IMG/VR virus record: IMGVR_UViG_3300024520_000355 | Span: 1 to 30,100 of that record | From: a virus | Direction: 5' to 3' (one strand) | Length of the DNA: 30,100 nucleotides | In this document: positions 6,598-27,667 of the stretch, in pieces | Layout of the letters: each line of letters opens with the position of its first letter | Position numbering within the stretch: the first letter of the stretch is position 1 | The notes under the pieces: model-generated | The model's input: the letters and a program-made list of their open reading frames with translations, nothing else | What the model was told of the DNA's origin: nothing | Databases searched by the model: none | Program-made: the position numbers and the translations under genes

Positions 6598-7268
6598 TGC
6601 TCACTCCAGTCCGTCTGCGTCTCGTTGTCGTCGGCCTTGAGTTCCATCCACGCCAACTCCTCCTCCTGGCGCACGAACGACAGGACTTGGTGGCCGCGCA
6701 TGGCAGCGAGTGTCGCCGCGGCGTGGGAAACAATGAACCTCTCGAATTCGGGCTGGATGTCAATCTTGTCGGCATCGGCAGTCAGGTGCGGGATGCGGCG
6801 GTGGTACCAGTGCTCCAATGTCGGATAAGTCGTGATGAACGACGCGGCGGGTGGCTTGTCCAGAAGCAACTGCCGCTGCTGGTACTGGGTGCTGTAGAAC
6901 CACGGCGTACCAGACTGGGTGGAAATCGGGTGCTCAGTCAGGAGCGTCTTGAGTTCCTTGTACTTCAGGCGACCGTCTCGCTTCGACCCGGAGGTCAATC
7001 TGAGCAGGATGATAGGTTCCTTGTAGTCGCTGGGCAGGCCGTAGTCCGCGTCGTCTGCCACGAGGGTGATCGTCCACTTATTGACCACCTTCATCCACGT
7101 TCGCGAGTTGATCCTGTCGATTGCGTTGTTGATCGCCCGCTGGGCCAACGCATTCAGGTCTGAATCGTCCTGCGTGCCCTGCACGTAGTTCAGCGCGTCA
7201 CGCTTCAACGCGGCTAGCGTGTGCGGCGCTGGAGCGAACCCGCTACTCGCCGCTACTCCTCTCGACAT
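6594..7268 (-). CDS. Head-tail adaptor-like protein (podovirus Gp4/Gp11 type)
   Basis: This 224-residue, mostly helical protein begins with a helix bundle (ALKRDALNYVQGTQDDSDLN, ALAQRAINNAIDRINSRTW). A beta segment follows (LVADDADYGLPSDYKEPIIL) and then a long C-terminal helix. That helix-strand-helix layout, with YGLPSDY in the middle, is typical of podovirus adaptor proteins that sit under the portal (P22 gp4 / T7 gp11 functional class). It lies between the capsid region and the large tail protein, as expected for an adaptor. It overlaps the preceding gene by 26 bases. The start is ATG. Functional class is inferred from fold-like pattern and synteny rather than from a diagnostic motif. Confidence 0.65.
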   Translation of the reverse strand: MSRGVAASSGFAPAPHTLAALKRDALNYVQGTQDDSDLNALAQRAINNAIDRINSRTWMKVVNKWTITLVADDADYGLPSDYKEPIILLRLTSGSKRDGRLKYKELKTLLTEHPISTQSGTPWFYSTQYQQRQLLLDKPPAASFITTYPTLEHWYHRRIPHLTADADKIDIQPEFERFIVSHAAATLAAMRGHQVLSFVRQEEELAWMELKADDNETQTDWSEQ

Positions 7269-7905
7269 GACTCTCTCCTGTCAAGACCACGGTGGGCCGT
7301 GGCTCGAACTGACCCATCTCTTCCAGAACCTTGCCCTCTTCCGGCGCGTCGGGTGAATCTTCCCATTCGGCCTTGTCCTCGGGAAGCTCAACCGTCTCTA
7401 CGTAGTCGGCTAACGTGATGCTGAACTCCTCTTCTAGGGACGAGCGGTCGATGCCGGGAATCTTTGCCGCGATCAGTTTCTCTAGCGTGTGCCGCCAGCC
7501 GCAGAGGATGACCTCGCCCCTGACCTGACGCTTGATCTGGACCAGTGATTCGTTGTGGAAGCAGGCCATTGGGAACGGTGGCTCCTGCGCCAGCAACTCC
7601 TCGGCGGATACGTCGTCCCACGAAACCTCTGCTATGTCCGGTATCGTGGACCAAACGGGCACCTCGACAAGATCGCCACCAGTCGGCAGGCCGCGGTCCA
7701 TCGAGCAAACGTGCTTCCTTCCGTCCGGCCGATCCCTGAAGTAGACCCCCTGTCGGTACTCCATGTAGGGGTGGTCCATGTTCAGTCGTGCGCCGACATC
7801 AAAGAAGATGCCTTCGTTCAGGCGTTCCAGGCCTCGCTTGAAGCGATACTCCGGGATCGTCCTACCGACAGCATCCTTGCTCAGTCTCAGCATCAGATCG
7901 GCCAC
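7243..7905 (-). CDS. Unknown protein downstream of capsid gene
   Basis: This 220-residue protein starts at GTG. The start is fixed by a strong ribosome binding site, ACGGAGG followed by TTTT and then GTG, just after the hairpin that follows the capsid gene. No family was recognised. The sequence is mixed and acidic towards the C-terminus (VELPEDKAEWEDSPDAPEEG). Two Cys and several Trp are scattered, with no CxxC pair. Some N-terminal phrases (RGLERLNEGIFFDVGAR, MEYRQGVYFRD) suggest a compact folded domain. Position between major capsid and adaptor suggests a head completion or head-associated protein, but this is inference only. Confidence 0.65.
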   Translation of the reverse strand: MADLMLRLSKDAVGRTIPEYRFKRGLERLNEGIFFDVGARLNMDHPYMEYRQGVYFRDRPDGRKHVCSMDRGLPTGGDLVEVPVWSTIPDIAEVSWDDVSAEELLAQEPPFPMACFHNESLVQIKRQVRGEVILCGWRHTLEKLIAAKIPGIDRSSLEEEFSITLADYVETVELPEDKAEWEDSPDAPEEGKVLEEMGQFEPRPTVVLTGESHVERSSGE

Positions 7906-7963: not shown

Positions 7964-8938
7964 CTACTTCGCGGTGTAGAGGAGCAGACCCCTGGTGTTC
8001 ACGTCGAGGGGGCGATGCCCAAGACGCGCCTTCCAGCCGATCGTTCCGAAGAGCATGAGCGGGTCGCTCTTGTCCTGGACGTTCGGCGGGATGATGATGA
8101 CGCGGCTGTTCCGCATGTCGAGGTTGCACCGTCCGATGGCGTCCTTGGACAATCCGATGTTCTTGTACGCCGTGACGGTGTTGGTCAGGGTGACCTGAGC
8201 GATGTTGTTCGACTTCATGATCGACATGCCTGCGTAGGTGCCGATCTCGTACCGCTCCAGCTTGCGCTGACCAGGGACGGTGTTCTTCTGGATGTCGGCC
8301 CAGGCGATCTTGACTCCCGTGGTTGCCCCTCCGGGCTCGACGTGCGTCTGGAGATCCTGCGCCGGCTCACCGTGGATGATGAGAACGAAATCACCGCCAA
8401 CCTTGTCGAACCCCTCGCAGTCCTGCTGGTCGAGGCGTCCGCTGGCAACGGCGATGTCTTGCGCCGTCATCGTGTCGGAGGTGGTGAGCGTTCCGGTGTT
8501 GTTGGTCTTCTGGCCGGAAACGATGAACGTGGTCGAGTCGTCCGCGTCGTTCCGGTGCAGGGTGTCGATGGTCTTCGCGGCACCGTAGGCGAAGATGTCG
8601 GAGAGCTTGTTTTTGGCCTGCGGGAGCCACGAGGCGTCCGCGAGATCCGACATCTTGCTGTGAGTGCCGTAGGTCGAGACGGTGGCCTCGTAGGTGCTCC
8701 ACGTCAGCGTGGCGACCTCGTTGGCTGAACCGAACTCAGCGATAGCGGTCGTGTTGGTCCCGATGTCAACCGGGAGAATCCAGCGGGCTACCGTGTGGCC
8801 TGCGCGGACAGGAATATCCGCCATCGTCGCGCATGGCGCGAACCGCAGCTTGTTTCTCAGAATTCCGAGGAAGCGACGAACGATGTAGACCGTGAGCAGC
8901 TTGCGGTCAGAGTGTCCACTAGGATACCCGTACCCCAT
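7964..8938 (-). CDS. Major capsid protein, N4-gp56-like (HK97 fold)
   Basis: This 324-residue protein follows portal and scaffold in the standard head-gene order. Its pattern resembles the N4-gp56 family of HK97-fold major capsid proteins. An N-terminal arm leads to a block where hydrophobic strands surround PVRAGHTVARW (about 44-54). A stretch of helices follows (NKLSDIFAYGAAKTIDTL), then a long P-domain-like strand region, and a C-terminal strand with IIIPPNVQDKSDPLMLFGTI. The start ATG is preceded by AGAGGTGACATC, a good ribosome binding site. It has its own terminator-like hairpin downstream. Length is in the normal range for this fold. The family assignment is by eye; the capsid role is well supported by context. 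Confidence 0.78.
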   Translation of the reverse strand: MGYGYPSGHSDRKLLTVYIVRRFLGILRNKLRFAPCATMADIPVRAGHTVARWILPVDIGTNTTAIAEFGSANEVATLTWSTYEATVSTYGTHSKMSDLADASWLPQAKNKLSDIFAYGAAKTIDTLHRNDADDSTTFIVSGQKTNNTGTLTTSDTMTAQDIAVASGRLDQQDCEGFDKVGGDFVLIIHGEPAQDLQTHVEPGGATTGVKIAWADIQKNTVPGQRKLERYEIGTYAGMSIMKSNNIAQVTLTNTVTAYKNIGLSKDAIGRCNLDMRNSRVIIIPPNVQDKSDPLMLFGTIGWKARLGHRPLDVNTRGLLLYTAK

Positions 8939-10072: not shown

Positions 10073-10346
10073 CTACGCTCTCCATTGACTCTCGCACGAG
10101 TTTATCCATTTCCTCGATGATTTCAAGGTAGATTGTCTGTGCGATAAGATTACTGCTAGCTATTTCCTGGGTCATCCCTTGTGTCCATCGAACCTCAGAG
10201 GCCCTGTTTCCAAGCCTACTCCGAAGCGTCTTGAACGCATCCGTGGAAACGAACTTCTGGATGTCGCGGGTGATCTCGGCCTGATCCTCCCCGTCCACCT
10301 TGGCGGGGCGGAAAAAGTCCTTGTACTTCTCAAGCACTCTACCCAA
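10065..10346 (-). CDS. Small unknown protein between portal and scaffold
   Basis: This protein of about 93 residues is mostly helical and charged (VLEKYKDFFRPAKVDGEDQA, IYLEIIEEMDKLVRESMES). The chosen start is TTG at 10346, because GGGAG sits five bases upstream. A GTG at 10337 is the alternative and would begin one base after the portal stop. With the TTG the gene overlaps portal by 8 bases and overlaps scaffold by 8 bases at its own end. Its place between portal and scaffold suggests a head assembly accessory, perhaps a minor scaffold or decoration factor. No family was recognised. Confidence 0.62.
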   Translation of the reverse strand: MGRVLEKYKDFFRPAKVDGEDQAEITRDIQKFVSTDAFKTLRSRLGNRASEVRWTQGMTQEIASSNLIAQTIYLEIIEEMDKLVRESMESVDV

Positions 10347-12228
10347 CTCGTCTCCCAGCGGCCTGCGCCGGCTCTAGACCGGAAGGCGAAAGACGCTGAC
10401 CGGCGTCGTTGCCGTTGGATGCCGGATTGCCCCCACCAGACTGCTGGGCCAGTTCGCCGTATATCTGCATCGACTGGGGGTCGGCTACAAACTGCTCCAA
10501 CTCGTGAAGGTCGAGGTCTCTGAGGTAGCGCACCATGAACTCGGCCCACGGGAACATCTGAGCCACCGGAAGCTGACCGATGACCTGTGCGGCGCGTTCG
10601 TAGGCTTCGACGCGGGTCTGCCGGTTGTGCTGCGACCGCGAACCGACAAACTTGATGTCCTGGTCGGCCATGATGTCGAAGATCGACGCAGGATTGGGTC
10701 GCGACCCGATTCGATCCTGAAGCGCCCCTGAGTCGTCGAGGAACTGCTGGTTCAGCAGGACTAGTGCCTGACCGATCTGGGGGAGGGCGTCCTTCTCGAT
10801 GAACTGGGCGATGGTCTCGGGTCGGATGCCAGCGCGTTGGTTCTCGATGGATGCCGCAGAGGCCGAACGAGGTACGCCACCCGAGAAGCCGAGTCCCTGA
10901 ACGACGTTATTCGCACCGGACATCTCCCTGACGCCCTGCTTCTGCTGGAACATCACATTCATCGCATCGCCAAGGGGCGGCGCGTAGGTCAACTGCTCCA
11001 CGCCGTCCATCTTGTCCGTCTCGATCGGCACGTTCGGGTGAAACTCTCGCAATTTGGCCGACCTGACGTTCGCGTTGCGGTCAACCAGCCATGGCGGGTG
11101 AGTCATCTTGACCACAGCGTCAGCGATGCAGTTCAGGACGGTGTCCGCGAAGTCCTGCGAGAACCTTGCGGTTTCCAGCGGGGAAATTCCGTAGAACCTG
11201 TTAGTCATCGGGTTGACGGTGAAGTCGTAGAACGGAAGGCGCTGACGCTTGAACGGCCAGACCTTCTTCTGTGCGACCGTTTCACCGCCGAGACAGGTCA
11301 AGACCTGCCAATTCGTCCCACCCTCGCTATCGACCTTCCACGGGACCTCACCGAAGAACTCGTAGCCTGTAAGCTGGATGTAATCGGGATGGGGTGTCCG
11401 CTTGACGGGCCTGTCCAGCCCCTCGAACTCCTGCAAGTCCTCGAGTTGAGGCGTGTCTTCGGTCATACCGGCATTGACGGCACGCTTGACTGCGGCCAAG
11501 TCCCACCGAGGATTGCTCTTGCCCTCATCCAGCGCCTCTCGGCCCAGCATCGTGAACCGCTTCACGCAGCCACGCATACGATTCAGGCGGGTTTCTCCGG
11601 GCATCGGGAAGAAGTCCAGCAAATCGACGTTTTCCATCCTTGGGTCGTCGTACTGGACCTTGGATGGGTTCAGGAACTCGGTAGGAACTTCAATGTTGCC
11701 GACGAGATCGAACGAACGCTCCAGTTCAGGGGCCTCGATGTAGTCCCACTCTGCGGTCATGATGCCCGTACCGAAGATGAACGCATCCTTGAGCCACTGG
11801 TAGAACGTGCGATAGTGCCCTTGGATCTCTAGGTCGTACTCCAGCAGACGAGTCGTGGTACTCGCCATGAAAGTGTCTTCCAGCCCGCGGCGGCGGGCCT
11901 GAATGAACCCGGGCTCACCGAATAGCGACAGCAACACGGACCCTAGCAGCGTTTCGACCACCTGATGCGACTCGGAGTCCTTGAGCATCGACCAGCTAGA
12001 CACCCCGGATGCCTTCCCGTAGTCCTGCGGGTAGTACGTCGTGAGAGGGTAGTCCTTGTCGCGGGCCATCCCCTCGCTGTACGGCTTCATGAGGTAGTTC
12101 TCGGCCGTCTCCAGCCAGATGTGCTTGTACTCATCCCGAAGCTCGTCCGACTCCTTGACGAACGACATGATGAACTCAGCGATCTCCTCGTCCCGGATCG
12201 CCCGCTGCCTGTCGGTTAGGTTTGGCAT
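10339..12228 (-). CDS. Portal protein (podovirus head-to-tail connector)
   Basis: This 629-residue protein has the size and character of podovirus head-to-tail connectors. The N-terminal region is charged and helical (RDEEIAEFIMSFVKESDELR). SMLKDSESHQVVETLLGSVL is followed by a run of alternating strands and helices, and FADTVLNCIADAVVKMTHPP lies mid-protein. The stretch FQQKQGVREMSGANNVVQG matches the Q/E-rich segment ending in a Gly loop usually seen near the channel of such connectors. The C-terminus is Gln/Gly-rich and probably disordered. It begins one base after the TGA of the preceding glycosyltransferase gene. Its position upstream of scaffold and capsid supports the call. The glycan island separates it from large terminase, which is unusual. 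Confidence 0.85.
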   Translation of the reverse strand: MPNLTDRQRAIRDEEIAEFIMSFVKESDELRDEYKHIWLETAENYLMKPYSEGMARDKDYPLTTYYPQDYGKASGVSSWSMLKDSESHQVVETLLGSVLLSLFGEPGFIQARRRGLEDTFMASTTTRLLEYDLEIQGHYRTFYQWLKDAFIFGTGIMTAEWDYIEAPELERSFDLVGNIEVPTEFLNPSKVQYDDPRMENVDLLDFFPMPGETRLNRMRGCVKRFTMLGREALDEGKSNPRWDLAAVKRAVNAGMTEDTPQLEDLQEFEGLDRPVKRTPHPDYIQLTGYEFFGEVPWKVDSEGGTNWQVLTCLGGETVAQKKVWPFKRQRLPFYDFTVNPMTNRFYGISPLETARFSQDFADTVLNCIADAVVKMTHPPWLVDRNANVRSAKLREFHPNVPIETDKMDGVEQLTYAPPLGDAMNVMFQQKQGVREMSGANNVVQGLGFSGGVPRSASAASIENQRAGIRPETIAQFIEKDALPQIGQALVLLNQQFLDDSGALQDRIGSRPNPASIFDIMADQDIKFVGSRSQHNRQTRVEAYERAAQVIGQLPVAQMFPWAEFMVRYLRDLDLHELEQFVADPQSMQIYGELAQQSGGGNPASNGNDAGQRLSPSGLEPAQAAGRRVG

Positions 12229-12229
12229 C

Positions 12230-13048
12230 TCATCGTCGCTCCACAGCCATTGCCGATTGGGTCACATTCCAGTCGGCGGGGTCGAGGTCGGCATCAAGTG
12301 ACTCCTGGGGCCAATGCAATGGTATCCTCTTTTCGTGGAAGGTCTGAACCGAGAAGTCCACATACAGTTTGTACCCTGCACGCCTGACTTGCTCACCGAA
12401 GTAGATATCCTCGGTTTTACGCAGCGAACCCGTCTTCGTCGCCTCGATGCGAATGTCTTGAGGCAAGAGGAACGGGGGTTCGCTCATCGAGATGGTCTCG
12501 ATCACATCTCTCCTGATTGCCATGTACCCTGCCCCGCAGCTTTCGATCTCCCTGATACCACTAGCGGGCATGGTCTTCGTATCCAGGGTCGTTGGGAACC
12601 GGGCTACTCCAGTCTGGTCCTTCACGGCGACACAGGCAAACGTACCGACGCCAGGGTTAAAGGCGCAGGCCACGCCGGAGACTACAGGCTCGCCATGGCC
12701 GCACAGTCGTAGCGGAGATTCCTGGTCTCCCGGGATAACGTCACTGTCCAGCATGACGAGGTACTTCCTGTTGGACTGCCGCAGGAACTCGTGGCACAGG
12801 TATGCCCTGAACACGTCGATGAACCCACCGAAGTCATCGCGGACAGGCATGAGTTCTATGCCAGACGAGACCCATGGCACGGCATACTCCAGCATCTTCG
12901 CGTTGAGTCCATCGTGAGGCCGGTGCGGTATCTGGACCGTGATCTGAGAGCATAGCTTCCTGGTCTCGATGATCCTTTCCTTTACTTCGGGTGTCGGCGC
13001 ATCGGCGGGCTTGACGTTCTTGATCTGCGTAGTAGACCAGAGACTCAT
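12230..13048 (-). CDS. GT-A glycosyltransferase (GT2-like)
   Basis: This 272-residue protein has a GT-A-like arrangement. A nucleotide-binding region leads to MLDSDVIP with a DxD motif at residues 101-103, the usual metal and sugar-nucleotide site. ESCGAGYMAIRRDVIE (about 169-184) matches the acceptor-side segment of many GT2 enzymes. TEDIYF (E213, D214) supplies a likely catalytic acid pair, and H238 in QTFHEK fits the terminal metal-binding His. No membrane segment was seen, so it is probably cytoplasmic. It overlaps the GT-C-like gene by four bases (ATGA) and abuts portal, so it should be co-translated with virion genes. Donor and acceptor cannot be read from the sequence. Confidence 0.8.
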   Translation of the reverse strand: MSLWSTTQIKNVKPADAPTPEVKERIIETRKLCSQITVQIPHRPHDGLNAKMLEYAVPWVSSGIELMPVRDDFGGFIDVFRAYLCHEFLRQSNRKYLVMLDSDVIPGDQESPLRLCGHGEPVVSGVACAFNPGVGTFACVAVKDQTGVARFPTTLDTKTMPASGIREIESCGAGYMAIRRDVIETISMSEPPFLLPQDIRIEATKTGSLRKTEDIYFGEQVRRAGYKLYVDFSVQTFHEKRIPLHWPQESLDADLDPADWNVTQSAMAVERR

Positions 13049-13956
13049 GCGTACTCCATGTCGGTGCTAGGCCAGAATAGGGATGACAGAACCCAGACGG
13101 CCAACATCCAGTCGTCCGCAACGACAGCGACCATCGGGACGACGAAGGGAAGGGCCATTGAGATTAACCGTGCGTGGTCCACGGCGATGAGCGTCTGCGC
13201 CCACGCGATGACAGCCACGGCAGCAGCGGGGACGGCGAAGACCGTTCCGGGTAGAAGGGCGGCGGCGGCGAAGGGTGTCAGTTTCATGTGCCCGAGGTTC
13301 TTGCTGTACGAGAACCACTCCCTTCTCTTACTAGCCTGAGAGTAGGCTATAGGATTCTTTAGCCACTCCTGGTCGGGTGGAGACGGCTTGATCGTGAGTC
13401 TCGCGAGGATCAACGCTATGGCCCCTGGCACAGCCACCCACCAGTGGCTCGGATCACGCAGCAGGATGAACGCCGCGCCGAGGGCATAGCCCGTTTCCTT
13501 AGACAAGGCCGACAGGAGCAACAACAACGCCGCCAAGGGGAGGGAGGACAGCGAGGCCGCTACAGCGAATGCCATAGCCCAAGAATCGGTCAACCACGGG
13601 AACATGATCCAACTTCCGACCAACGATTCGGTCATGATGAGGACCATCACGACAGCGAACGCGGCCCATGTGGACCCACCAAGACTGAGTGTGAGCAGGT
13701 AGCTCGACGCCAGTAGTGCGATCATCCCAGCGAAGACCACGCAGCGCATGGTCCAGTGAGGCTCCATCGGTAGGAAGCGAAGCATCCTCGACACGAACGG
13801 CACAAAAACCCTGAAACAGTAGGGTTTTGGCGTCGGCCTGCCGATCGACATATTGAGGTAATACTGCCCGTCAGGCGAGATCCTGCCGTCGATCTGACGC
13901 ATCCTGAGCGCCAGTACGACCGCGATGACCGCTAGTTGGGCTGCGACCTGTACCAC
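13045..13956 (-). CDS. Polytopic membrane protein, GT-C glycosyltransferase-like
   Basis: This 303-residue protein has about eight hydrophobic segments. Soon after the first one comes PDGQYYL with Asp29, and PYCFRVFVP follows at 45-53. An acidic residue in the first outside loop followed by an aromatic/Arg motif is common in bacterial GT-C enzymes that use lipid-linked sugars. PWLTDSWAMAF and LSALSKETGYALG are also of that type. The start is GTG at 13956, with AAGGAG placed five bases upstream, so the 25-base overlap with the preceding glycosyltransferase gene looks genuine. A polytopic membrane protein inside a head-gene operon is unusual. A flippase or O-antigen modification protein (Gtr-like) is the main alternative. 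Confidence 0.72.
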   Translation of the reverse strand: MVQVAAQLAVIAVVLALRMRQIDGRISPDGQYYLNMSIGRPTPKPYCFRVFVPFVSRMLRFLPMEPHWTMRCVVFAGMIALLASSYLLTLSLGGSTWAAFAVVMVLIMTESLVGSWIMFPWLTDSWAMAFAVAASLSSLPLAALLLLLSALSKETGYALGAAFILLRDPSHWWVAVPGAIALILARLTIKPSPPDQEWLKNPIAYSQASKRREWFSYSKNLGHMKLTPFAAAALLPGTVFAVPAAAVAVIAWAQTLIAVDHARLISMALPFVVPMVAVVADDWMLAVWVLSSLFWPSTDMEYA

Positions 13957-14669
13957 TCGATCTCCTTCAGGATCCTCTGGTGCGTCTCTTTGGTGAACTT
14001 CTTCAAGAACTCGTCGCGGGCCTCGTCACTGTAGATGTGCTGCGGCGCAACGAATGCCCCGAACCCATTGATGACATCGGGGGTCTTCGTGGACACTGCG
14101 TCGAGCCTACTGCAACTCGCCCATGTGCAAGACAGCGAACGATCCATGACTGCGTCAGTCGCCCTGTGCGCTGTTTCATTCCAGAGCGACCAGCCGGCGG
14201 CAGCAACATCATTCCTCCTCATCAACCTGAACGCACCGATCGTCTGGCCGAACCGGACCTCGTCGTACCCCGGCCAATAGACCATCTGCCCAGTCAGCAT
14301 GTCGATGAAGTTGTAGTCCACCATTCCGGTCGGGCCGTGCTTGACCGCTATGTCGATCATTCGCATCAGCGACTCGTCTCCTATGATGTCGTCGCTGCCG
14401 GCAATCATCACCAGATCTGCATCGCGCTCTCGGCACAAATTCAGTCCAGCCTGCCATTTTCCCGTTAGCGGATCGTTCTGGCATTCCACGTAGGAGAACC
14501 CGTGCTGCTTCGCCAGCGACCGAGAAGCCTCGCCTTCGCTGCCGACCACGGCGATGTCGATCTTGATCTCCTTCGCTAGACGCCTACGCATCCTGCGGTA
14601 GTGGTCGAGCACGAGGTCGGTGACCCTCGGCCTCTTCCAGATCGGCATGTCGATCATCAGTTTCATCAT
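13932..14669 (-). CDS. GT-A glycosyltransferase (GT2-like)
   Basis: This 245-residue protein begins with a Rossmann-like stretch (DIAVVGSEGEASRSLAKQHG). It carries ADLVMIAGSDDIIGDE, with GSDD at 91-94 as the DxD-type motif of GT2 enzymes. NDPLTGKWQAGLNLC just before it is the usual 'new arrivals/identifiable N' segment preceding the DxD strand. The C-terminus is helical and charged. No membrane segment was found. Its start overlaps the stop of the GT-B gene (ATG at 14669, with a second ATG directly after it), and its end overlaps the membrane protein gene by 25 bases. The substrate is not known. Confidence 0.75.
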   Translation of the reverse strand: MMKLMIDMPIWKRPRVTDLVLDHYRRMRRRLAKEIKIDIAVVGSEGEASRSLAKQHGFSYVECQNDPLTGKWQAGLNLCRERDADLVMIAGSDDIIGDESLMRMIDIAVKHGPTGMVDYNFIDMLTGQMVYWPGYDEVRFGQTIGAFRLMRRNDVAAAGWSLWNETAHRATDAVMDRSLSCTWASCSRLDAVSTKTPDVINGFGAFVAPQHIYSDEARDEFLKKFTKETHQRILKEIEWYRSQPN

Positions 14670-15571
14670 GCGTACTGCTCATACAGACGCTTCAGCCAGA
14701 GGCCCGTATGCTCCAGGTCATTATCCGCCAGGGCCCATGCCCGGGATTCGTCGCTCATCTTATCTATCTCGGACCCGGGTTGGCCTACAAGGAATTCAAT
14801 CTGATCTCTAAGCGCGTCTTCGTCGTTTGCGATGAGTAGCGGCCTCTCGCCCCACGGGTCAGGATTGACGCAGTTGGTGACGACTATAGCGCCCAGGAGT
14901 GACGCCTCCTTGGCCGTGAGTCCAGACTCGCCAAGAGGCTTTGTTATTCCCTTATGGGTGAACATCATGCACAGCGTCTCAATGACAACATCGCACAGGA
15001 GAAGGTCTTTGATGTGTTCGCTCCAGCCCTTGACTCCTCGAGTCACGTACTCGATACCATCTATCTCCCGGGCGACACGAGAGATCTCCGCGGTCCCCTT
15101 GGAGGCTGGATTCGTCGGGAAGTGACCCACACGCAGACGGCCGCGGGGCCTTCTCTCCGGCTTCGGGTAGATGCTCGTGTCGATGGGTGTCGAGAAGAAT
15201 ATTTCAGGTTTGCTCGACAAACCAAGAAGATCCGGGGTCTCTATCAGCGACATCACCACGCGGAATTCACTGAGCATGTCGTGCATGATATCTTTGTAGC
15301 AGCGGTAGTGCGACCCGCCATGCTGCACGACCACTGGGACATCTCTCTTCGGGAGCCACGGCGGCGGCTTACTGTTCAGCACATGGTATAGGTCCGCTGA
15401 TTCGACAAACCCCGCAACGCTATCGTCATAGATCACGGCCTGCTCGGGGTAGTTGAACGGGTGATCCTGCGACTTCACGGCCAGGGCATCGACACCAACT
15501 CTACGCAGCGCCTTCTCCAGCGTCTTCGAGACGTTGGCGCTGTCACCCACGGCTGCAAGAACTACACGCAC
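14666..15571 (-). CDS. GT-B glycosyltransferase (GT4-like)
   Basis: A GTG at 15571 was chosen, giving 301 residues. It has GCGAGGT just upstream and begins three bases after the acetyltransferase stop, whereas the longer frame to 15892 would run through that gene out of frame and reads as Arg-rich noise. The N-terminal half (VVLAAVGDSANVSKTLEKAL) is a first Rossmann domain. RLRVGHFPTNPASKGT marks the start of the second, and GESGLTAKEASLLGAIVVT matches the GT4 donor-binding motif with E-x7-E spacing. The enzyme should transfer a sugar from an NDP-sugar in the cytoplasm. It is the only GT-B enzyme in the island. Confidence 0.75.
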   Translation of the reverse strand: MRVVLAAVGDSANVSKTLEKALRRVGVDALAVKSQDHPFNYPEQAVIYDDSVAGFVESADLYHVLNSKPPPWLPKRDVPVVVQHGGSHYRCYKDIMHDMLSEFRVVMSLIETPDLLGLSSKPEIFFSTPIDTSIYPKPERRPRGRLRVGHFPTNPASKGTAEISRVAREIDGIEYVTRGVKGWSEHIKDLLLCDVVIETLCMMFTHKGITKPLGESGLTAKEASLLGAIVVTNCVNPDPWGERPLLIANDEDALRDQIEFLVGQPGSEIDKMSDESRAWALADNDLEHTGLWLKRLYEQYA

Positions 15572-15573
15572 AC

Positions 15574-16014
15574 CTACCTCGCTGGACTGCCCATGACGTA
15601 ACCGTGAGACTCGACATCGTGGGTGACGACGGACCCCGCCCCGATGAACGAATGCTCCCCGATGGCTACCGGGCAGACGAGTGTCGCGTTGGCCCCGATA
15701 ACGACACCCTTGCCGACCACGGTCTTGTCGTAGACCTCCTTCCTGATCCCTGGAACCGGACGGCGATCGTTCGTGAAGACCACCGAAGGGCCGATGAAGC
15801 AATCGTCTCCTAGCGTCACCCCGCTGTAGACCGAGACGTTGTTCTGGATTCTCACGCGGTCGCCTATGACCGCACCCTCCTGAACGAAGCACCCCTGCCC
15901 GATCATGACATCCTTCCCGATCTTGGCTCCGCGCTGGATGTGCGTGAAGCGCCAGATGGTCGTGGAATCGTCAATCGACTCTTGGTCCTCGACATCGGCT
16001 AACTCATGGATCAT
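15574..16014 (-). CDS. WbpD/WlbB-like hexapeptide N-acetyltransferase
   Basis: This 146-residue protein is built of left-handed beta-helix hexapeptide repeats (IGKDVMIGQGCF, IGDRVRIQNNVSVYSGVTLG, CFIGPSVVFTNDRRP, VIGANATLVCPVAIGEHSFI). IQNNVSVYSGVTL and GPSVVFTN closely follow the WbpD/WlbB pattern. Those enzymes acetylate the 3-amino group of UDP-2-acetamido-3-amino-2,3-dideoxy-glucuronate in O-antigen sugar synthesis. It ends at GSPAR, shorter than WbpD (about 190 residues), so a C-terminal tail is absent. Its ATG overlaps the WbpB-like gene by four bases. The pairing supports a shared pathway, although related enzymes that acetylate other 3-amino sugars (FdtC/QdtC type) are possible. Confidence 0.85.
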   Translation of the reverse strand: MIHELADVEDQESIDDSTTIWRFTHIQRGAKIGKDVMIGQGCFVQEGAVIGDRVRIQNNVSVYSGVTLGDDCFIGPSVVFTNDRRPVPGIRKEVYDKTVVGKGVVIGANATLVCPVAIGEHSFIGAGSVVTHDVESHGYVMGSPAR

Positions 16015-16865
16015 GCCACATCCTCATTCCATCGTGATATATCCGAAAGCGTCTCCACAAGCTCGGTGACCGTCTGCAACGACGAGACACGATTACCGAC
16101 GCCGGCTGCGATCTCCTGGTACGCCCTGCGGTGACCGGCATCTGGGTTGGTCGTCGTGAGGTTCATGCAGAAGTCCTCACCCCAGATCAGTCTCTCCGCG
16201 GCACCATCCGTGCCGACTGTCCATTGCACGGTGCATTTCGGGAACTTGATACGGCCCTTGATGATGTTCCCGTGAGTGGACTCCACAGCAGCAGACCTCG
16301 GCTTACCGAATAACTGACAGAGAAGGTCGAAGCCGTGGATTCCGATGTTCCACAGAACGCCTCCGCTCTGATCGAACTGCCCCTTCCATGAGTTCTCGTA
16401 CCACTTACCTCGGGTGGCGACGTAATTCATCTTGGCCCACGGAGCCGATCGCACGGTGTACTTCGAACCCTCGGGGCGAAGCTGCAAGATTGCGTATACG
16501 TTCCGCTTGGTGTCATGCTCGATCTTGGCAAGGTCAAACAGTGACGCGCTGGACAGTACGAGCGGCTTCTCGCAGACCACATCGGCATCAGCAACCATCG
16601 CAGACACGCAATGATTAAAGTGGAGGTGATTCGGCGTGCAGACGACAACACGGGAAATCTTATGATCCTTGACGTACTTGAAGAACGGCTCGTCAGATCG
16701 CAGGAACTCGGCACCGGGGAAGAATCCCTCGATGTAGCCCACGTTGTCGTGCGCGTCGCAGATCGCCTTCACGTCCGCGCCGAGAGAATGGAGCACCTTG
16801 ACGTGCCTGCGGGCGATGTACCCGGCAGCACCGATGATCGCGTATGTTTCAGACCTTCTTGGCAC
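16011..16865 (-). CDS. WbpB/WlbA-like Gfo/Idh/MocA oxidoreductase
   Basis: A GTG at 16865 was chosen because GGAGG lies six bases upstream and it puts the Rossmann motif GAAGYIA at residues 12-18. A GTG at 16889 lacks such a site. The order of motifs matches WbpB/WlbA. VVCTPNHLHFNH and CEKPLV (about 99-103) are the dehydrogenase signatures, ILQLR and ATRGKWYENSWKG come next, and GGVLWNIGIHGFDLL carries the conserved His. WbpB-type enzymes oxidise UDP-GlcNAc-uronate at C3 with NAD. The gene overlaps the zinc-finger gene by 17 bases and its partner acetyltransferase gene by four. No aminotransferase gene (WbpE role), which acts between these two steps, is present in the window. Confidence 0.87.
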   Translation of the reverse strand: MPRRSETYAIIGAAGYIARRHVKVLHSLGADVKAICDAHDNVGYIEGFFPGAEFLRSDEPFFKYVKDHKISRVVVCTPNHLHFNHCVSAMVADADVVCEKPLVLSSASLFDLAKIEHDTKRNVYAILQLRPEGSKYTVRSAPWAKMNYVATRGKWYENSWKGQFDQSGGVLWNIGIHGFDLLCQLFGKPRSAAVESTHGNIIKGRIKFPKCTVQWTVGTDGAAERLIWGEDFCMNLTTTNPDAGHRRAYQEIAAGVGNRVSSLQTVTELVETLSDISRWNEDVA

Positions 16866-17229
16866 TGCACGCCTCCGCGATGGCTGCACCGGAAACGAAC
16901 GGCTTGCCGGTAGGGGGATGCTCGGCTACGGCAGTCTCTCTGCTACAAAGGACGCAGTAGGTGTCGGCCCAACGGTCGTGGTTGCGCCATGAGTTAAGCG
17001 CGTGGCCGAGGCCGTCAGCTAGCTGCTCCGCGTCGAGCTTCAGCATACCGAGGCGACCCAGCGGCTCCGTGCCTTCGAACTCATTGATGGGCGTGAGAGG
17101 GTCACGACCGGGAGGAGACTCCTTCGGGGGGACGATGGCGGAGGGATGTGCGGCGGACCTGTGCTTGTTCAGCCCGCGTTCGTTCTTGAACGACCTTCCG
17201 CAGTCTTCGCACTTCTTCCAACTAAGCAT
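16849..17229 (-). CDS. C2H2 zinc-finger protein
   Basis: This 126-residue protein starts with a classical C2H2 finger, CEDCGRSFKNERGLNKH followed by RSAAH. Cys7, Cys10, His23 and His28 have C-x2-C-x12-H-x4-H spacing, and aromatic and Leu positions are filled by Phe14 and Leu20. The rest is Pro-rich, then helical (KLDAEQLADGLGHALNSWRN). A second CVLCSRE pair is near residue 90, which could bind another metal. It sits between a glycosyltransferase gene and the WbpB-like gene, overlapping them by 8 and 17 bases. It may bind DNA or protein. Its role in the island, regulatory or otherwise, is unknown. Confidence 0.75.
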   Translation of the reverse strand: MLSWKKCEDCGRSFKNERGLNKHRSAAHPSAIVPPKESPPGRDPLTPINEFEGTEPLGRLGMLKLDAEQLADGLGHALNSWRNHDRWADTYCVLCSRETAVAEHPPTGKPFVSGAAIAEACSAKKV

Positions 17230-17872
17230 TGATGGCCTCCGGGTTTAGTAGAAACTCACCTACTTGGTGCTTTCTCCTGTTGCGCTGCCTCTGCTTCTTG
17301 ATGTGGGTGTCGTTGTCGGAGCGACTGTAATAATGATAGAGAGCCTTGTCGATCCTGTGCTGCGTCTCGAGATCCTGGCGCATCTTCCGCGCCTGCACCA
17401 TGTCGGAACCGCGCCACTTGTCGGGGTACGGGTGCTTCTTCCTAATGTCCGCACGGATCGCCATCAGTTCTCCGGGGTAGCGCCAGAGCAACTTGTTGTC
17501 CCAGTCGTCCCGGTACTCATGCTCGAGGCCCCACTTCACCGTGGCGATGAACTCACCGTCGCGGTACATCGCAGAGTCGAACACGATGCAGTCAACGCCG
17601 TCGTGCTGCTCGATCGCCTCGACCAGAGACGACACGTAGTCATCCGCTGGGAGGTCGTCGTCACCGATCACCGCGATGTACTTCCCGCGGGCGGCGGCGA
17701 CGAGGACGTTCCACTTGCAGCCCACCGACATGCGTAGGTTGTCCACGAGGCCCAGGACCTCGACCCCGGCGGAATCGCCTATCTGCGCGTCCAGGTTCTC
17801 AACCAGTCGCGGAAGGTACTTCCTGACCGTTCCCGGATAGGAGAGTGTCAGAATGGACAGGTCAATAGGCAC
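17222..17872 (-). CDS. GT-A glycosyltransferase (GT2-like)
   Basis: A GTG at 17872 was chosen, giving 216 residues. AGGAG lies eight bases before it, and the protein then begins MPIDLSILTLSY, a normal GT2 first strand. A start at 17926 would add a Ser/Pro-rich tail inside the large terminase frame. The gene still overlaps large terminase by 11 bases. GKYIAVIGDDDLPADDY has the GDDD metal motif at about residues 70-73. The preceding VGCKWNVLVAAARG is the usual lead-in helix. YRDDWDNKLLWRYPGELMAI and the charged C-terminus (KKQRQRNRRKH) follow. It is the first gene of the glycan island, directly coupled to the packaging ATPase gene. Confidence 0.77.
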   Translation of the reverse strand: MPIDLSILTLSYPGTVRKYLPRLVENLDAQIGDSAGVEVLGLVDNLRMSVGCKWNVLVAAARGKYIAVIGDDDLPADDYVSSLVEAIEQHDGVDCIVFDSAMYRDGEFIATVKWGLEHEYRDDWDNKLLWRYPGELMAIRADIRKKHPYPDKWRGSDMVQARKMRQDLETQHRIDKALYHYYSRSDNDTHIKKQRQRNRRKHQVGEFLLNPEAINA

Positions 17873-19433
17873 AGTATCGGCTCCTGCGGGGGGCTTCGTC
17901 ATCGTCCCACTGGTCGAGGAACTCATCGGCCATCATCTCGACAGACGGAGAGAATTCCTGTAGAGCCGAATCGGTCAAACGGGCGACCACATCACCGAGG
18001 TCGTCAAACTTGTTGGTGTTGCGGCCCTTCGGGAGGGGTCGCCAGCCGCGGTTCTGACCGAGGAGCTTCTCAACGAACTCAGGCGGGCAACTCTCGCAGA
18101 TGTAGAATCGCTCGTCCCTGGCAAGGTCGGAAAGCGCCTCGAAACGTACATTCTTCGCACCCGACTGGTAGGAGTTCTTGAACTTGATCCAGTTCAGGCC
18201 GTTCACGCCGTTGCGCTTCACCGCCTCCCTGGTGTCCTGCTCGTAGTCCACCTGGAGGCCGCCGTAGCACTCGATCCCTACCTTATTGCTGCTCCACTTG
18301 TTCATGAAACGGCAGATTTCGTCTAGCCCTGCGCTTCGTCCCCAGGTTTTGCTGAAAGAACCGTCAAGGAGAACTGCGAATTTTCGCTGTCGATCAACGC
18401 ACCAAGCAATGACAGCAGTCGCCCAGTCGTCCTTGCTTCCATCTCCGCGTTTCTGTTCTCCAATTCCAGTCTGAGACCCAACTTTGGCAGGAGCAGGATC
18501 ACTGAGGGTGAAGACGGTTCGCTTGACACTCGCAAGCTCCTTGATCGTGATGTAGTGTTCGCACTCCGAGGCGTTCCACGGCTTCTCTCCGGCCGGCGAC
18601 GGGTCGTTCATCATCTGGAACGCGAAGTCCGATGGCCCCATCTCCTCACGGCGGATCTTAAGTTCCTTCGCCGTGAACAACACCGGGGTACCCTTGTAGT
18701 CAGGCGACCCCTCGGTCTCCAGCGCGGCCCTGACACGGCACTTCCACTGCTTCGACTTCAGCCAGTCGCCCGAAACGTCGTCCATGTCCCAACGGGTAGC
18801 CTTCGCGAGAATCGTCCCGCCAGGGTTCAATACCGGCAAAACGGTGGTCTTGAACCACCTCTTGACCTTCGGCAACCCGGAGTCCTCGATCGTGTTACGG
18901 CCTACGATGTCGTCAGGGTAGATACGATTGACATGCGCCCCGGTGATCTCCGAGTTGGTGGACTTCCCAAGCAACGTCGGCTGCCGGTTGTATGCCGTGC
19001 GCTTCACCGTGAACTGATTCATCTTCAGGAATCTCTTGTTCGACGGGTGAGGCATGATTTCGGGTAGCAAACCTCGAAGTTTCTTGTTCTGGAGGAAGTG
19101 CGTACCGCACTCCTGAACGATCTTCTGGACCTCGTCATCGACGGCGTGGCAGACCAGGATCGTATCGTTCGGGTCGATCAGGATGTCCTGAATGATCTGA
19201 CCAATCTCCACCGTGGTCTTGTAGTGCCCACGAGGCCATAGATCGAGGACACGGGAGGCACCCGAAATGCGCTCACAGTCCATCTCGTCCAACATCGGCT
19301 TGTGGAACTCTTCGGTGAACAGGTCGTAACCCAGGATCTCCGTACACAGGTACCAAAGCGAAGTCTTGGCCTTTTCGAGCTTCTCCGCACGCTCGTAGGC
19401 AGCAAAGGACTTCAACATCGCCGCGGATGGCAT
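17862..19433 (-). CDS. terL: Terminase large subunit (ATPase and nuclease)
   Basis: This 523-residue protein has the two terminase domains. The ATPase carries a deviant Walker A, WPRGHYKTT at 66-74 with Lys72, and a Walker B in IYPDDIV (Asp174, Asp175). KATRWDMDD (about 211-219) follows as the coupling segment. The RNase H-like nuclease has its acidic residues in LSDPAPAK (Asp312), VLLDGSF (Asp357) and KFDDLGDVVAR (Asp477, Asp478, Asp481). It drives DNA into the prohead and cuts the concatemer. The ATG overlaps the stop of a 60-residue gene by one base (TGATG). The following gene is a glycosyltransferase instead of portal, which is unusual. Confidence 0.93.
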   Translation of the reverse strand: MPSAAMLKSFAAYERAEKLEKAKTSLWYLCTEILGYDLFTEEFHKPMLDEMDCERISGASRVLDLWPRGHYKTTVEIGQIIQDILIDPNDTILVCHAVDDEVQKIVQECGTHFLQNKKLRGLLPEIMPHPSNKRFLKMNQFTVKRTAYNRQPTLLGKSTNSEITGAHVNRIYPDDIVGRNTIEDSGLPKVKRWFKTTVLPVLNPGGTILAKATRWDMDDVSGDWLKSKQWKCRVRAALETEGSPDYKGTPVLFTAKELKIRREEMGPSDFAFQMMNDPSPAGEKPWNASECEHYITIKELASVKRTVFTLSDPAPAKVGSQTGIGEQKRGDGSKDDWATAVIAWCVDRQRKFAVLLDGSFSKTWGRSAGLDEICRFMNKWSSNKVGIECYGGLQVDYEQDTREAVKRNGVNGLNWIKFKNSYQSGAKNVRFEALSDLARDERFYICESCPPEFVEKLLGQNRGWRPLPKGRNTNKFDDLGDVVARLTDSALQEFSPSVEMMADEFLDQWDDDEAPRRSRYCAY

Positions 19434-19615
19434 CAGGACTCCTTAGTGAGCCAAACTACCGGGGTGGGATTCTCGTATGGATTCGGGCCATTACCACACA
19501 TCCAGCGACCAGTAGGTGTGTCGTACCATGTGTACTGAGCCACGAAGACATCAAGGATGCGGTCACGTAACTCATGAGACATCTCAGAGTCAGGATCCTT
19601 GAACGCCAGAGCCAT
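19433..19615 (-). CDS. Small unknown protein upstream of large terminase
   Basis: This 60-residue protein is not recognised. It has a helical N-terminal half with acidic and His residues (FKDPDSEMSHELRDRILDVF), then an aromatic half (QYTWYDTPTGRWMCGNGPNP). The start overlaps the preceding basic gene's end by one base and its stop overlaps the large terminase ATG by one base, so it is clearly part of the coupled series. It is not basic, unlike its five upstream neighbours. Function is unknown. Confidence 0.6.
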   Translation of the reverse strand: MALAFKDPDSEMSHELRDRILDVFVAQYTWYDTPTGRWMCGNGPNPYENPTPVVWLTKES

Positions 19616-20031
19616 CAGACCTTTCCCCTCTTCCTGGCTACCTTCGCACTGATCCGACCTAGCTTCTTGGAAAACTTGCGGGAACGCTTATCACCACGGG
19701 CACGGGTCTCGGCTACCGTCTCACCCCTACGAGCCTTCACGCGCACGTAATCACCAGTGGTGAACGCAGCCTTCGCTGCCTGCGGAGGAGTCAGTCGGGT
19801 CAGTTTGCCGGTCGTGGCACTCTTCCGTATCGTAGGCACCACCGCGACATCCGTTCGGCCCTTGCGACCCTTCACGTCGAACGTAGCCGACCGCACCGAA
19901 GACCTCGTACCGTCAGGATTGGCAATCCCGCCCGTACCAGATCTCGCACCCGCCAACGCACGCTTGCCAAACGTCGTGTGCTTGAACTTCTTGCGGCCGA
20001 TGCGCTTGGCCTTGGATGCACTCCGTGCCAC
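19615..20031 (-). CDS. Basic protein with RKRGKV tail
   Basis: This 138-residue protein has 40 Lys or Arg (about 29%) and few acidic residues. It starts at GTG 20031, overlapping the previous TAG by one base. The sequence is Gly/Ser-rich early on (RALAGARSGTGGIANPDGT). It then contains RRGETVAETRAR, a segment shared in form with the 105-residue member of the cluster. It ends ARKRGKV, close to the GRKKGKV of its two upstream neighbours. Nucleic-acid binding is likely from composition. Possible roles are DNA condensation in the head, histone-like activity or binding of packaging RNA, but none is shown. Confidence 0.65.
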   Translation of the reverse strand: MARSASKAKRIGRKKFKHTTFGKRALAGARSGTGGIANPDGTRSSVRSATFDVKGRKGRTDVAVVPTIRKSATTGKLTRLTPPQAAKAAFTTGDYVRVKARRGETVAETRARGDKRSRKFSKKLGRISAKVARKRGKV

Positions 20032-20243
20032 TACACCTTCCCCTTCTTACGACCCTTGTGCTTGTTGACGGTGCGAAGAAACTTCTTCTCTGCGGTGACT
20101 AACTGGCTCTTTTTCATGTTGATGTGCGCTTGGATACCCTGCGATCTTGCGAACTTCAGTTCCTCACGCTTCTTACGTAGTACACGCCGAGCATGAACGA
20201 CGGCATCATCAAACGCAGCCCTGACTTTCACTTTAGTAGCCAT
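20031..20243 (-). CDS. Basic protein with GRKKGKV tail
   Basis: This 70-residue protein is about 31% Lys or Arg (22 of 70). It is probably mostly one long helix (HARRVLRKKREELKFARSQG, NMKKSQLVTAEKKFLRTVNK) that ends in KGRKKGKV. The coding sequence for that tail lies in a 21-base direct repeat shared exactly with the next gene (20035-20055 and 20247-20267). The ATG overlaps the preceding TGA by one base. It is likely a nucleic-acid-binding or internal virion protein, but no family is recognised. Confidence 0.62.
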   Translation of the reverse strand: MATKVKVRAAFDDAVVHARRVLRKKREELKFARSQGIQAHINMKKSQLVTAEKKFLRTVNKHKGRKKGKV

Positions 20244-20485
20244 CAGACCTTCCCCTTCTTACGACCCAAGACGCGGTTGTTCTCTCGCAAAAACTGCTTG
20301 TTCAGAATGTCCAGATCAGCCGTGTGCTGCTTCACCGCCTTCACGTCACCACGACGCCTAGCATCAGCACGCATCTTACGGGTCGAACTCAAACTGTTGC
20401 GGATGAACTTGATACCCGCGTGGGTCTTGCGGTCGGGACGGGCAACCCGAGGACGTGCAGGACGCTTCCTTGCAGTCGGCATCAC
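20243..20485 (-). CDS. Basic protein with GRKKGKV tail
   Basis: This 80-residue protein has 25 Lys or Arg (31%). The N-terminus is a Pro/Arg tract (TARKRPARPRVARPDRK) and the rest is a basic helix (IKFIRNSLSSTRKMRADARR) ending LGRKKGKV. It shares this C-terminal tail, at both DNA and protein level, with the 70-residue neighbour. The start overlaps the previous gene by four bases; two ATGs in tandem are possible starts. Function is unknown; the composition suggests nucleic-acid binding. Confidence 0.62.
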   Translation of the reverse strand: MMPTARKRPARPRVARPDRKTHAGIKFIRNSLSSTRKMRADARRRGDVKAVKQHTADLDILNKQFLRENNRVLGRKKGKV

Positions 20486-20868
20486 TTCTTACTCTTCACT
20501 TTGCCACGGTACGACTTCTCGTACCCCTCAGTGCCGTAGAGAGTGCCGCCTAGGGGACCAGATTGGACCCCTTTATTGAGGAGTGCGCGTTTCTTCGCGT
20601 GGGCCTTCCCCGCAGCAGTCTTTGCGTACTTCGCCTCGACCGATCGCGCTGCACGACCCTGACGCTCACCAAGACGGGCCTCGTCACGGGCGTAGGAGTT
20701 GATGAGCTTCTGACGGCCCAGCGACTTGGCCTGAGCCTCACTCATCAGCGTGAGACCGGAACCCATCTTCTGCTTCGACCCACCACGAGCAGCGGTGGCC
20801 TTCAGGGTGCGAATGGGCTTTCTTGTGACACGACCAGCCTTCTTCTTGGCTACTTTTCTCGGCATCAC
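20482..20868 (-). CDS. Basic Lys/Arg/Ala-rich protein
   Basis: This 128-residue protein is rich in Lys, Arg, Ala and Gly. It opens MMPRKVAKKKAGRVTRKP and ends YRGKVKSKK. The middle has a helical section with few acidic residues (AKSLGRQKLINSYARDEARL, AARSVEAKYAKTAAGKAHAK). Its tail contains GKV but differs from the GRKKGKV ending of its neighbours. It overlaps the preceding gene by four bases and the next by four. It belongs to the basic cluster by composition and position, with no recognised family. Confidence 0.62.
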   Translation of the reverse strand: MMPRKVAKKKAGRVTRKPIRTLKATAARGGSKQKMGSGLTLMSEAQAKSLGRQKLINSYARDEARLGERQGRAARSVEAKYAKTAAGKAHAKKRALLNKGVQSGPLGGTLYGTEGYEKSYRGKVKSKK

Positions 20869-21182
20869 TTCACCTTCTTGCGGCGGATCGTACCACCCTC
20901 GTCCAACAACACGTTCTCCTGATTCTGACGGTCCTGGAACTGCTTCCTGGTAGGAGGAGGGGTACGCTTCATGCGGGCATGGAAAGCCGCAACCGTCTCG
21001 CCTACCTTCCTCACACCTCGCTTCACAGCACGATTGAACGGATCGTTGGCCCCAGAAGTAGTCTTCGGGGTACCTCGCACCAATCGCTTCTTCTTACCAG
21101 GGGCATGGAGGGGTGTCCCAGTCTTCAAAGCATAGGCCCGAGCTATACTCTTGGACCTCGTTCCGGTCTTCTTGGCCGCCAT
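20865..21182 (-). CDS. Basic protein, first of the basic cluster
   Basis: This 105-residue protein is Lys/Arg-rich (KKTGTRSKSIARAYALKTG, APGKKKRLVRGTPKTT) with a C-terminal half containing KVGETVAAFHARMKR. That segment has the same GETVA-x3-AR form as RRGETVAETRAR in the 138-residue member, suggesting duplication. The end is TIRRKKVK. A 55-base gap separates it from the preceding gene, the largest gap between 19433 and 21911, so it may have its own translation signal. Function is unknown. Confidence 0.62.
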   Translation of the reverse strand: MAAKKTGTRSKSIARAYALKTGTPLHAPGKKKRLVRGTPKTTSGANDPFNRAVKRGVRKVGETVAAFHARMKRTPPPTRKQFQDRQNQENVLLDEGGTIRRKKVK

Positions 21183-21237: not shown

Positions 21238-21453
21238 TCAGGAAGTCCCGCGGATGATTCGCTGGTACATGTTGGAGGCAATACGAGACCAGTATTCCTT
21301 CTCGGTTAGGAGTTCCTGAGTGATTGGATCGTAGAAGTCCTTGGAGACGGTATCTAATCCCGAATCTACCTGAAATTTCCGGGAGGGATCTAATGAATAG
21401 TCTTGGGTGCGGGATGGGGCCATCCCCCCCGGGCTACCTGGGTCCTCAGTCAC
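21238..21453 (-). CDS. Small unknown protein after small terminase
   Basis: A GTG at 21453 was chosen. It overlaps the small terminase stop by four bases (GTGA) and has a GGAGAGGAGAGG purine run just upstream. This gives 71 residues. An earlier start at 21486 would lie deeper within the terminase gene. The sequence has a disordered first part (EDPGSPGGMAPSRTQDYS) and then a segment with SRKFQVDSGLDTVSKDFYDP and EYWSRIASNMYQRI. No family was recognised. It lies between the small terminase gene and the basic-protein cluster. Confidence 0.55.
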   Translation of the reverse strand: MTEDPGSPGGMAPSRTQDYSLDPSRKFQVDSGLDTVSKDFYDPITQELLTEKEYWSRIASNMYQRIIRGTS

Positions 21454-21911
21454 GGCCTCTCCTCTCCAGCCTTGCAAGCATCCCACCCTTTCCGAGTAGC
21501 AAGCAGCAAGGCACGGTCAAGGAACGCAGCGAACCTGTTGGGTGTCTCAGTGTCCTCTGTCCCGATACCCAAGTCAACTGCCAGCCGTTCCGCTTCGAAC
21601 GCAACCTTGACTAGCCCACCCACTTCAATCGGGGTGAGTTCTTGACTCGCAGTGTCCTCTAGTTTGGATAGCAGTTTGCGCCGGGCCGACTGGATCTTAC
21701 GTAGATCGCCCCGGGCTTTATCCAGGTGTCGCGCTTTCCTACGCTCCACGGCCTTTTCAACGTCCGGAAGGGTCAAGATCTCATGGGCCGCTTGTTTGGA
21801 CACCCCGAGTCTCCGCGCAACCTCTGATTGATTCCCGTTAACCTCAGGCATAGCAGCAGTTACGACGTATCGCTGCCTTGTAGGTGTCAACCCTTGTAGC
21901 TCCGGGCTCAT
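21450..21911 (-). CDS. terS: Terminase small subunit-like, HTH protein
   Basis: This 153-residue protein has an N-terminal helix-turn-helix, NQSEVARRLGVSKQAAHEIL at about residues 27-46, of the type used by terminase small subunits to bind packaging sites. A long charged helix (VERRKARHLDKARGDLRKIQ) and a second helical part follow, fitting oligomerisation. It is the first gene of the late operon and its ATG at 21911 faces the divergent control region. No strong ribosome binding site lies upstream. If the candidate leftward promoter is used, the transcript would start very near this ATG. A transcription regulator of the late operon is an alternative. Confidence 0.7.
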   Translation of the reverse strand: MSPELQGLTPTRQRYVVTAAMPEVNGNQSEVARRLGVSKQAAHEILTLPDVEKAVERRKARHLDKARGDLRKIQSARRKLLSKLEDTASQELTPIEVGGLVKVAFEAERLAVDLGIGTEDTETPNRFAAFLDRALLLATRKGWDACKAGEERP

Positions 21912-27422: not shown

Positions 27423-27667
27423 TTCTCTTTTCCACCGGATAGCAGCATCGCCATCCCCTCGATCCTATTGACTATTACGCGGCTCATTAGGACGCCCTTG
27501 GCCGCGCCGTTCGATGCGTTGAGCGCAGCCACCTGTGCGCTGACTTGCTTGTGGAACCCGTCAGTGTAGAGGTTCCTAGTCTGTGCGCTGATCTTCTTCG
27601 CTAGGGCTTGGGCCGATTTCGCGTTCTCCAGCAGAAGGCCCTCTGTCGTCTCTATCGCCTTGTCCAT
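27419..27667 (-). CDS. Small helical protein, unknown
   Basis: This 82-residue protein starts at ATG 27667, with AAACGGAG a few bases upstream (27673-27680). It is largely helical and rich in Ala, Lys and Ser (ENAKSAQALAKKISAQTRN, KQVSAQVAALNASNGAAKG). The pattern suits a small coiled or helical-bundle protein. No family was recognised. The upstream candidate gene overlaps its first 92 bases in another frame. Confidence 0.58.
   Translation of the reverse strand: MDKAIETTEGLLLENAKSAQALAKKISAQTRNLYTDGFHKQVSAQVAALNASNGAAKGVLMSRVIVNRIEGMAMLLSGGKEK

Follow-up and report, generated by a model that had tools for sequence, protein, structure and literature searches.

Experimental knowledge of virion glycosylation in phages comes from few systems. 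In phage Corndog, an O-methyltransferase and three glycosyltransferases (GTs), gp35-gp38, are encoded with the portal and protease genes as flanks, and capsid modification has been proposed for them (PMC4351075). Glycosylated Corndog proteins have been reported, and Corndog gp38 as well as gp110 of mycobacteriophage Che8 were termed essential for capsid glycosylation (PMC12363180). In Sulfolobus turreted icosahedral virus (STIV), A197 is an essential GT and the coat protein is glycosylated (PMC10551542). Here, we analysed IMG/VR record IMGVR_UViG_3300024520_000355, an environmental, podovirus-like viral fragment; this record in full (30,100 bases) is referred to as the window. Eight co-oriented minus-strand genes fill positions 12230-17872 of the window, with the large terminase gene (terL) on one side and the portal gene on the other. 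Four of their products are firmly identified, namely a GT2-family enzyme, a WbpB-like Gfo/Idh protein, a WbpD-like acetyltransferase and a portal-proximal GT-A enzyme. We consider it somewhat probable that this cassette is expressed late and adds a Wbp-type sugar to the virion.

Gene content of the terL-portal interval

The genes of the interval and its two boundaries are as follows, in the order of the coding strand.

17862..19433 (-): terminase large subunit (phrog_38, E 1e-39), upstream boundary
17222..17872 (-): GT2-family GT-A glycosyltransferase, Che8 gp108-like
16849..17229 (-): small protein, N-terminus C2H2-zinc-finger-like
16011..16865 (-): WbpB-like Gfo/Idh/MocA sugar 3-dehydrogenase, divergent
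15574..16014 (-): WbpD-like left-handed beta-helix N-acetyltransferase
14666..15571 (-): probable GT-B (GT4-like) glycosyltransferase
13932..14669 (-): probable GT-A glycosyltransferase with a GSDD motif
13045..13956 (-): multi-spanning membrane protein, GT-C-like by pattern
12230..13048 (-): GT-A glycosyltransferase, resident gene of the site
10339..12228 (-): portal protein (SU10_portal PF23899, E 3e-22), downstream boundary

The sequence-only reading of this DNA had described eight co-oriented genes flanked by terL and portal, overlapping with each other and with terL. The open reading frames (ORFs) and the profile matches for TerL and the portal bear this out, and each adjacent gene pair overlaps or abuts, including TerL/GT and last GT/portal. 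The outer end of the island, 17872, is the GTG start of the first GT gene and has a good Shine-Dalgarno sequence, AGGAG, although the ORF is extendable to 17926. This start was refined by Shine-Dalgarno sequence and homology, as were those of the WbpB-like gene (GTG at 16865 after GGAGG; the ORF opens at 16889) and of the GT-B gene (15571).

The first GT matches PF00535 (E 2e-6) and the GT family phrog_8858 (E 5e-25), and is 34.8% identical to Che8 gp108 over residues 22-199 with an invariant DDD motif. The portal-proximal GT has no Pfam match but matches phrog_1574 (E 1e-11). Judged by its AlphaFold2 (AF2) model (pLDDT 73, pTM 0.75), which has Foldseek matches to GT-A enzymes, it is a GT-A glycosyltransferase. 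The nearest solved fold is STIV A197, itself a GT-A (E 1.7e-9, 19% identity), the best viral fold matches include annotated phage GTs, and the motifs MxDxD...P, GxG, ED..F and H are invariant across 5 phages.

The WbpB-like protein matches PF01408 (E 1e-14), and its best PDB match by far is WbpB (3oa2, E 5e-38). It retains the EKP lysine, the NIGxHxxD motif and 45 of the 57 family-conserved positions, in agreement with the WbpB-like call made from the sequence alone. However, no other WbpB protein in the set diverges as far, its end branch in the tree being 3.95 against a median of 0.51, and this divergence makes its exact substrate uncertain. The WbpD-like call likewise stands, since the protein matches PF00132 (E 3e-27) and, over its full length, WlbB/WbpD (3mqg, E 5e-35) as the best PDB match. 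The second-best PDB match, the WxcM-like 4mzu, has a similar score, so the best match does not fix the substrate.

The other four genes are less uniform than the sequence-only reading, which counted three GT-A enzymes, one GT-B enzyme and a GT-C-like membrane protein in a glycan island of eight genes. Profile searches recognised GT2, WbpB and WbpD, whereas the GT-B has no Pfam match. The latter is probably a GT-B, as judged from its phage homologues, with 31-32% identity to neighbours of WbpB/WbpD in four contigs (L010, L011, L022 and L025), and from a weak GlgA GT-B similarity (E 0.23). Its homologues align only from residue 108 or later of the longest ORF, and the start was moved 321 nt downstream of the longest-ORF start; no bacterial homologues were confirmed. 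Two GT-A enzymes are firm, the GT2 and the portal-proximal one. The third, at 13932-14669, is probably a GT-A by its motif and one small homologue set: it is 30% identical to L024:641-1468, which lies directly upstream of the WbpB gene there, and its match to TIGR04440 is weak (E 0.07). When this protein and the portal-proximal GT-A were compared with the GT2 set profile to profile, the alignments were too shallow and no significant match resulted. The membrane protein (303 aa) has several hydrophobic segments by hydropathy and a single-sequence AF2 model of low confidence (pLDDT 46); it gave no profile match, and no homologues were found in plasmids, phages or genomes. The small protein is not a glycan enzyme but C2H2-like, with a PF00096 match of 23.0 bits, under the cut-off of 25.2. 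A second Cys pair (CVLC) lies farther along it.

On the coding strand from terL to portal, no terminator-like sites were seen in the scan, and promoter-like sites were not above chance level. The cassette would thus be transcribed late, with the virion genes. The island and the virion genes have closely similar codon use (correlation r 0.97) and GC content at third codon positions (0.746 v 0.754), and this makes a recent or chimeric origin less plausible. A mis-assembly, in which a host polysaccharide locus was joined to the phage contig, had been named as a finding that would overturn the sequence-only reading. In favour of such an artefact, the contig is metagenomic and unfinished. Nevertheless, the reading frames overlap at both junctions, codon use and GC are matched, the same portal-junction GT is found in an independent contig (L102, described below) and similar cassettes occur in further independent contigs. 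We therefore regard an artefact as extremely unlikely.

The terL-portal site in relatives

No close relatives were found in IMG/VR by TerL, portal or GT2 peptide patterns, and there was no DNA-level match to the window in phage records. The nearest relative, found via TerL alignment, is IMGVR_UViG_3300005355_000390 (L102; 37,972 bases). Its gene order is terL-GT-portal-major capsid protein (MCP), and these and two further genes are homologous to, and in the same order as, those of the window, with 29-38% identity across the larger matches (TerL 32% over residues 14-520; portal 35%). The window's portal-proximal GT is 38% identical to the product of L102:9551-10261, which is flanked by terL and portal at spacings of 3 bases (terL-GT) and 0 bases (GT-portal). 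The remaining seven island genes were found nowhere in the 37,972-base L102 record. Since L102 has the GT without the other seven, the block was either inserted in the window lineage or lost in L102, at the terL/GT boundary; since L102 keeps the portal-adjacent GT, that GT is the resident, older gene of the site.

The sequence-only reading had taken terL and portal as normally adjacent and proposed a search for the terL-GT-portal order elsewhere. Among the 40 TerL relatives with both genes, the gap is at most 100 nt in 13 but exceeds 1 kb in 8, so that adjacency does not hold throughout this group and the gap is permissive. A recognisable GT lies in the gap in L102 only.

These gaps bear on the view that the sugar genes are metabolic cargo, that is, a mobile block in a permissive terL-portal gap, expressed late by position and with no dedicated role in the virion. 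Gaps are filled with unrelated cargo in some relatives (the 8 of 40 above 1 kb), and cassette positions vary among phages. However, the resident GT holds the same place in L102, the codon use is fully adapted, and several groups of phages have GTs and WbpB/WbpD in the neighbourhood of their head genes. We consider the cargo view improbable.

WbpB/WbpD cassettes in other phages

WbpB relatives turned up in 29 contigs when IMG/VR was scanned. The genes of L011 are arranged as TerL, portal, radical-SAM, WbpB, WbpD, GT2, epimerase, GT-B, scaffold-like and MCP, the GT-B being a homologue of that in the window; the same run lies upstream of the MCP in L010. L015 and L030 share with the window the PHROG families of portal and MCP; in both, genes for WbpB, WbpD, a GT and a methyltransferase are flanked by MCP and tail genes. 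WbpB and a WbpD-like domain lie behind the MCP in L038, WbpB alone has the portal and MCP as flanks in L033, and WbpB/WbpD genes adjoin packaging or portal genes in L026, L027, L031 and L037. A GT also adjoins the MCP in the relatives L123, L131 and L156.

A constant proximity of WbpB to TerL was rejected, as distances range from <3 kb to >90 kb; TerL lies tens of kilobases from WbpB in L012 and L019. In the WbpB tree, virion-module location requires 4 changes, a single origin is still compatible, and the window branch is too long to place.

The WbpE-type family PF01041 is present in 11 of the 26 other WbpB phage records. WbpB, WbpD, a DegT-type aminotransferase and a TIGR00236-type (WecB) epimerase stand in a row upstream of the portal at L027:1957-5731. 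At L031:346-4108, also upstream of the portal, the consecutive genes are WbpB, WbpD, an aminotransferase and an ORF resembling a WecB-type epimerase. These two rows amount to a nearly full UDP-ManNAc(3NAc)A pathway, WbpA excepted.

Two further observations concern the head modules of these contigs. At L131:10290-11619 and L123:15144-16473, a histidine-phosphatase-like gene and a resident-GT homologue have the scaffold and MCP on either side. The MCP gene of L030 (6826-8430) is, by eye, apparently split by a LAGLIDADG-type homing-endonuclease-like ORF (7203-7742), which suggests an intron or intein.

Proposed role and comparison with known systems

Starting from the gene order, the four enzyme families, the synteny with and without the cassette and the recurrence in phages, all of which are established, we propose the following. 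The older resident GT (12230-13048) occupies the terL-portal site, and the lineage carries alongside it the seven-gene block with the WbpB-like/WbpD-like pair, the GT2, the probable GT-B, the probable GT-A and the membrane protein. Host UDP-GlcNAcA, or a like sugar, would be oxidised at C3 by the WbpB-like enzyme, aminated by an aminotransferase of the host or of an unsequenced part of the genome, and N-acetylated by the WbpD-like enzyme. The cytosolic GTs would then attach sugars one after the other to a single virion protein or several, e.g. capsid, portal or tail, during synthesis; the missing WbpA and WbpE steps would be supplied by the host or the unsequenced part. A possible acceptor is the major capsid protein:

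7964..8938 (-): MCP (phrog_1357, E 4e-23)

The benefit may be particle shielding or adsorption.

Several points weigh against this proposal. The contig, a 30.1-kb fragment, yielded neither a WbpE-type aminotransferase (PF01041) nor a WbpA-type 6-dehydrogenase (PF03721), and the named sugar may therefore not be made; WbpI was also not found among the scanned ORFs of the window. The very divergent WbpB homologue may have a different substrate, and operon position informs on timing at most, not on target. Moreover, should the membrane protein be a genuine GT-C, it would use lipid-linked sugars at the membrane, which would suit a change of the host surface better.

The latter alternative, also offered by the sequence-only reading, is that sugars are added or replaced late in infection on O-antigen, capsule or another glycan, limiting re-adsorption to debris or excluding rivals. 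The strongest argument for it is the membrane protein, with its GT-C-like pattern. Furthermore, bacterial WbpA-B-E-D produce UDP-GlcNAc(3NAc)A for O-antigen in Pseudomonas (PMC10622841), and phage GT clusters were interpreted in this way by the authors of a pelagimyophage genome study (PMC7029224). However, the initiating transferases of O-antigen or capsule assembly (PHPT, PF02397; WecA-type, PF00953), Wzx (PF01943) and GtrA (PF04138), the last expected of a Gtr-type seroconversion cassette together with GtrB and a GT-C Gtr, were found neither in the window nor in 13 comparable contigs, whereas 14 control genomes put through these searches gave 7 to 13 positives; host machinery could serve instead. 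The cassettes also recur in virion modules, not in lysogeny-conversion or early regions. We consider a host-surface role unlikely, though it deserves more weight than the cargo view. Virion decoration appears the better supported function, because those transferases, Wzx and GtrA are absent from the 14 records, most of the enzymes are cytosolic, the GT2 is akin to Che8 gp108, Corndog offers a parallel and the resident GT resembles STIV A197. A sugar derived from a Wbp pathway is also known to be joined to protein: in Porphyromonas, it is the linker between cell-surface proteins and the lipopolysaccharide A-LPS (PMC7468200).

The idea of a dedicated glycan system in a late operon thus holds up, given the lack of terminator-like sites, the overlaps, the same-place GT in L102 and the cassettes in other virion modules. 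To call it complete would be too strong, as WbpA and WbpE are not in the contig, one gene is zinc-finger-like and the membrane protein is no more than a candidate GT-C.

The virion genes are on the minus strand; after TerS and TerL come the island, portal, scaffold-like and MCP genes and then, reaching the left end, tail-like genes. The neighbouring features are as follows.

21450-21911 (-): TerS, PHROG support weak
19433-21182 (-): TerS-TerL interval, small end-to-end ORFs, mostly Lys/Arg-rich
23631-24269 (+): sliding-clamp-like protein; two minus-strand modules flank its short plus-strand block
26497-27435 (-): DNA methyltransferase-like
28657-29178 (-): RusA-like, which with the preceding gene lies beyond the sliding-clamp-like gene

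Several of the small ORFs at 19433-21182 have a common C-terminal tail like RKKGKV and are possibly paralogous nucleic-acid-binding or virion proteins.

The gene at 26497-27435 is cytosine-methyltransferase-like, which would fit a role of the GTs in glycosylating phage DNA. DNA hypermodification is a common role of phage GTs, and a TET-associated GT is a distant fold match of the resident GT (rank 26). However, the scanned ORFs gave no match to base-hydroxylating or hydroxymethylating enzymes, WbpB/WbpD belong to sugar-nucleotide pathways, and the genes sit with virion, not replication, genes. We regard this role as very unlikely.

A broader view is that of a widespread phage system: amino-uronic sugar genes of the WbpB/WbpD type would move together with GTs into the head/packaging blocks of tailed phages that are not related to one another, and would give the particle a Wbp-type coat, the window being one instance built around a resident terL-portal GT. 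We hold this only tentatively, as a less probable claim than virion glycosylation in the window itself. A recurrent signature of WbpB, WbpD and GTs in or beside the head operon would allow sequence-based prediction of glycosylated particles, and would guide the choice of cultured relatives and the search for new protein-glycosylating enzymes of the bacterial cytosol. It would also be unsafe to class these genes by default as host-metabolism (auxiliary) genes when they turn up in viral metagenomes.

Glycan genes in a phage virion operon are already known from Corndog and from Gordonia phage Mareelih, in which GTs are flanked by the head-to-tail adaptor and tail assembly chaperones. The new elements are the terL/portal site, where the comparison with L102 reveals a resident GT, and the recurrent link of WbpB/WbpD to virion modules of several phage groups; no description of the latter was found in the literature searched, most subscription papers being outside its reach.

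As in Corndog (cluster O), modification genes lie among the head genes of the virion operon, and several co-directional GTs are inside the packaging/head block. However, Corndog is a Mycobacterium siphovirus that uses the portal-protease site, and a WbpB/WbpD pair and a membrane protein are not described in it. Che8 gp108-gp110 is also a three-GT block, and the GT domain of gp108 has 35% identity to the window GT2; nevertheless, that block lies at the right genome end, outside the virion module, is without sugar-nucleotide enzymes, and gp108 has an extra C-terminal region. STIV A197 is a viral GT-A and the closest solved fold to the resident GT, but is a lone GT of an archaeal virus with 19% identity, for which donor and acceptor are not established. 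The Pseudomonas aeruginosa Wbp pathway (WbpA-B-E-D-I) provides the best structural matches for the dehydrogenase and acetyltransferase, whereas the window is without WbpA, WbpE and O-antigen assembly genes and has a very divergent WbpB copy. The Manatee Spring podovirus MW202801 differs in that its cassette follows the MCP, its terL directly adjoins portal and WbpB/WbpD are not annotated; it resembles the window in having a related MCP, with GT, methyltransferase, NodB-like and PhyH genes in the virion module.

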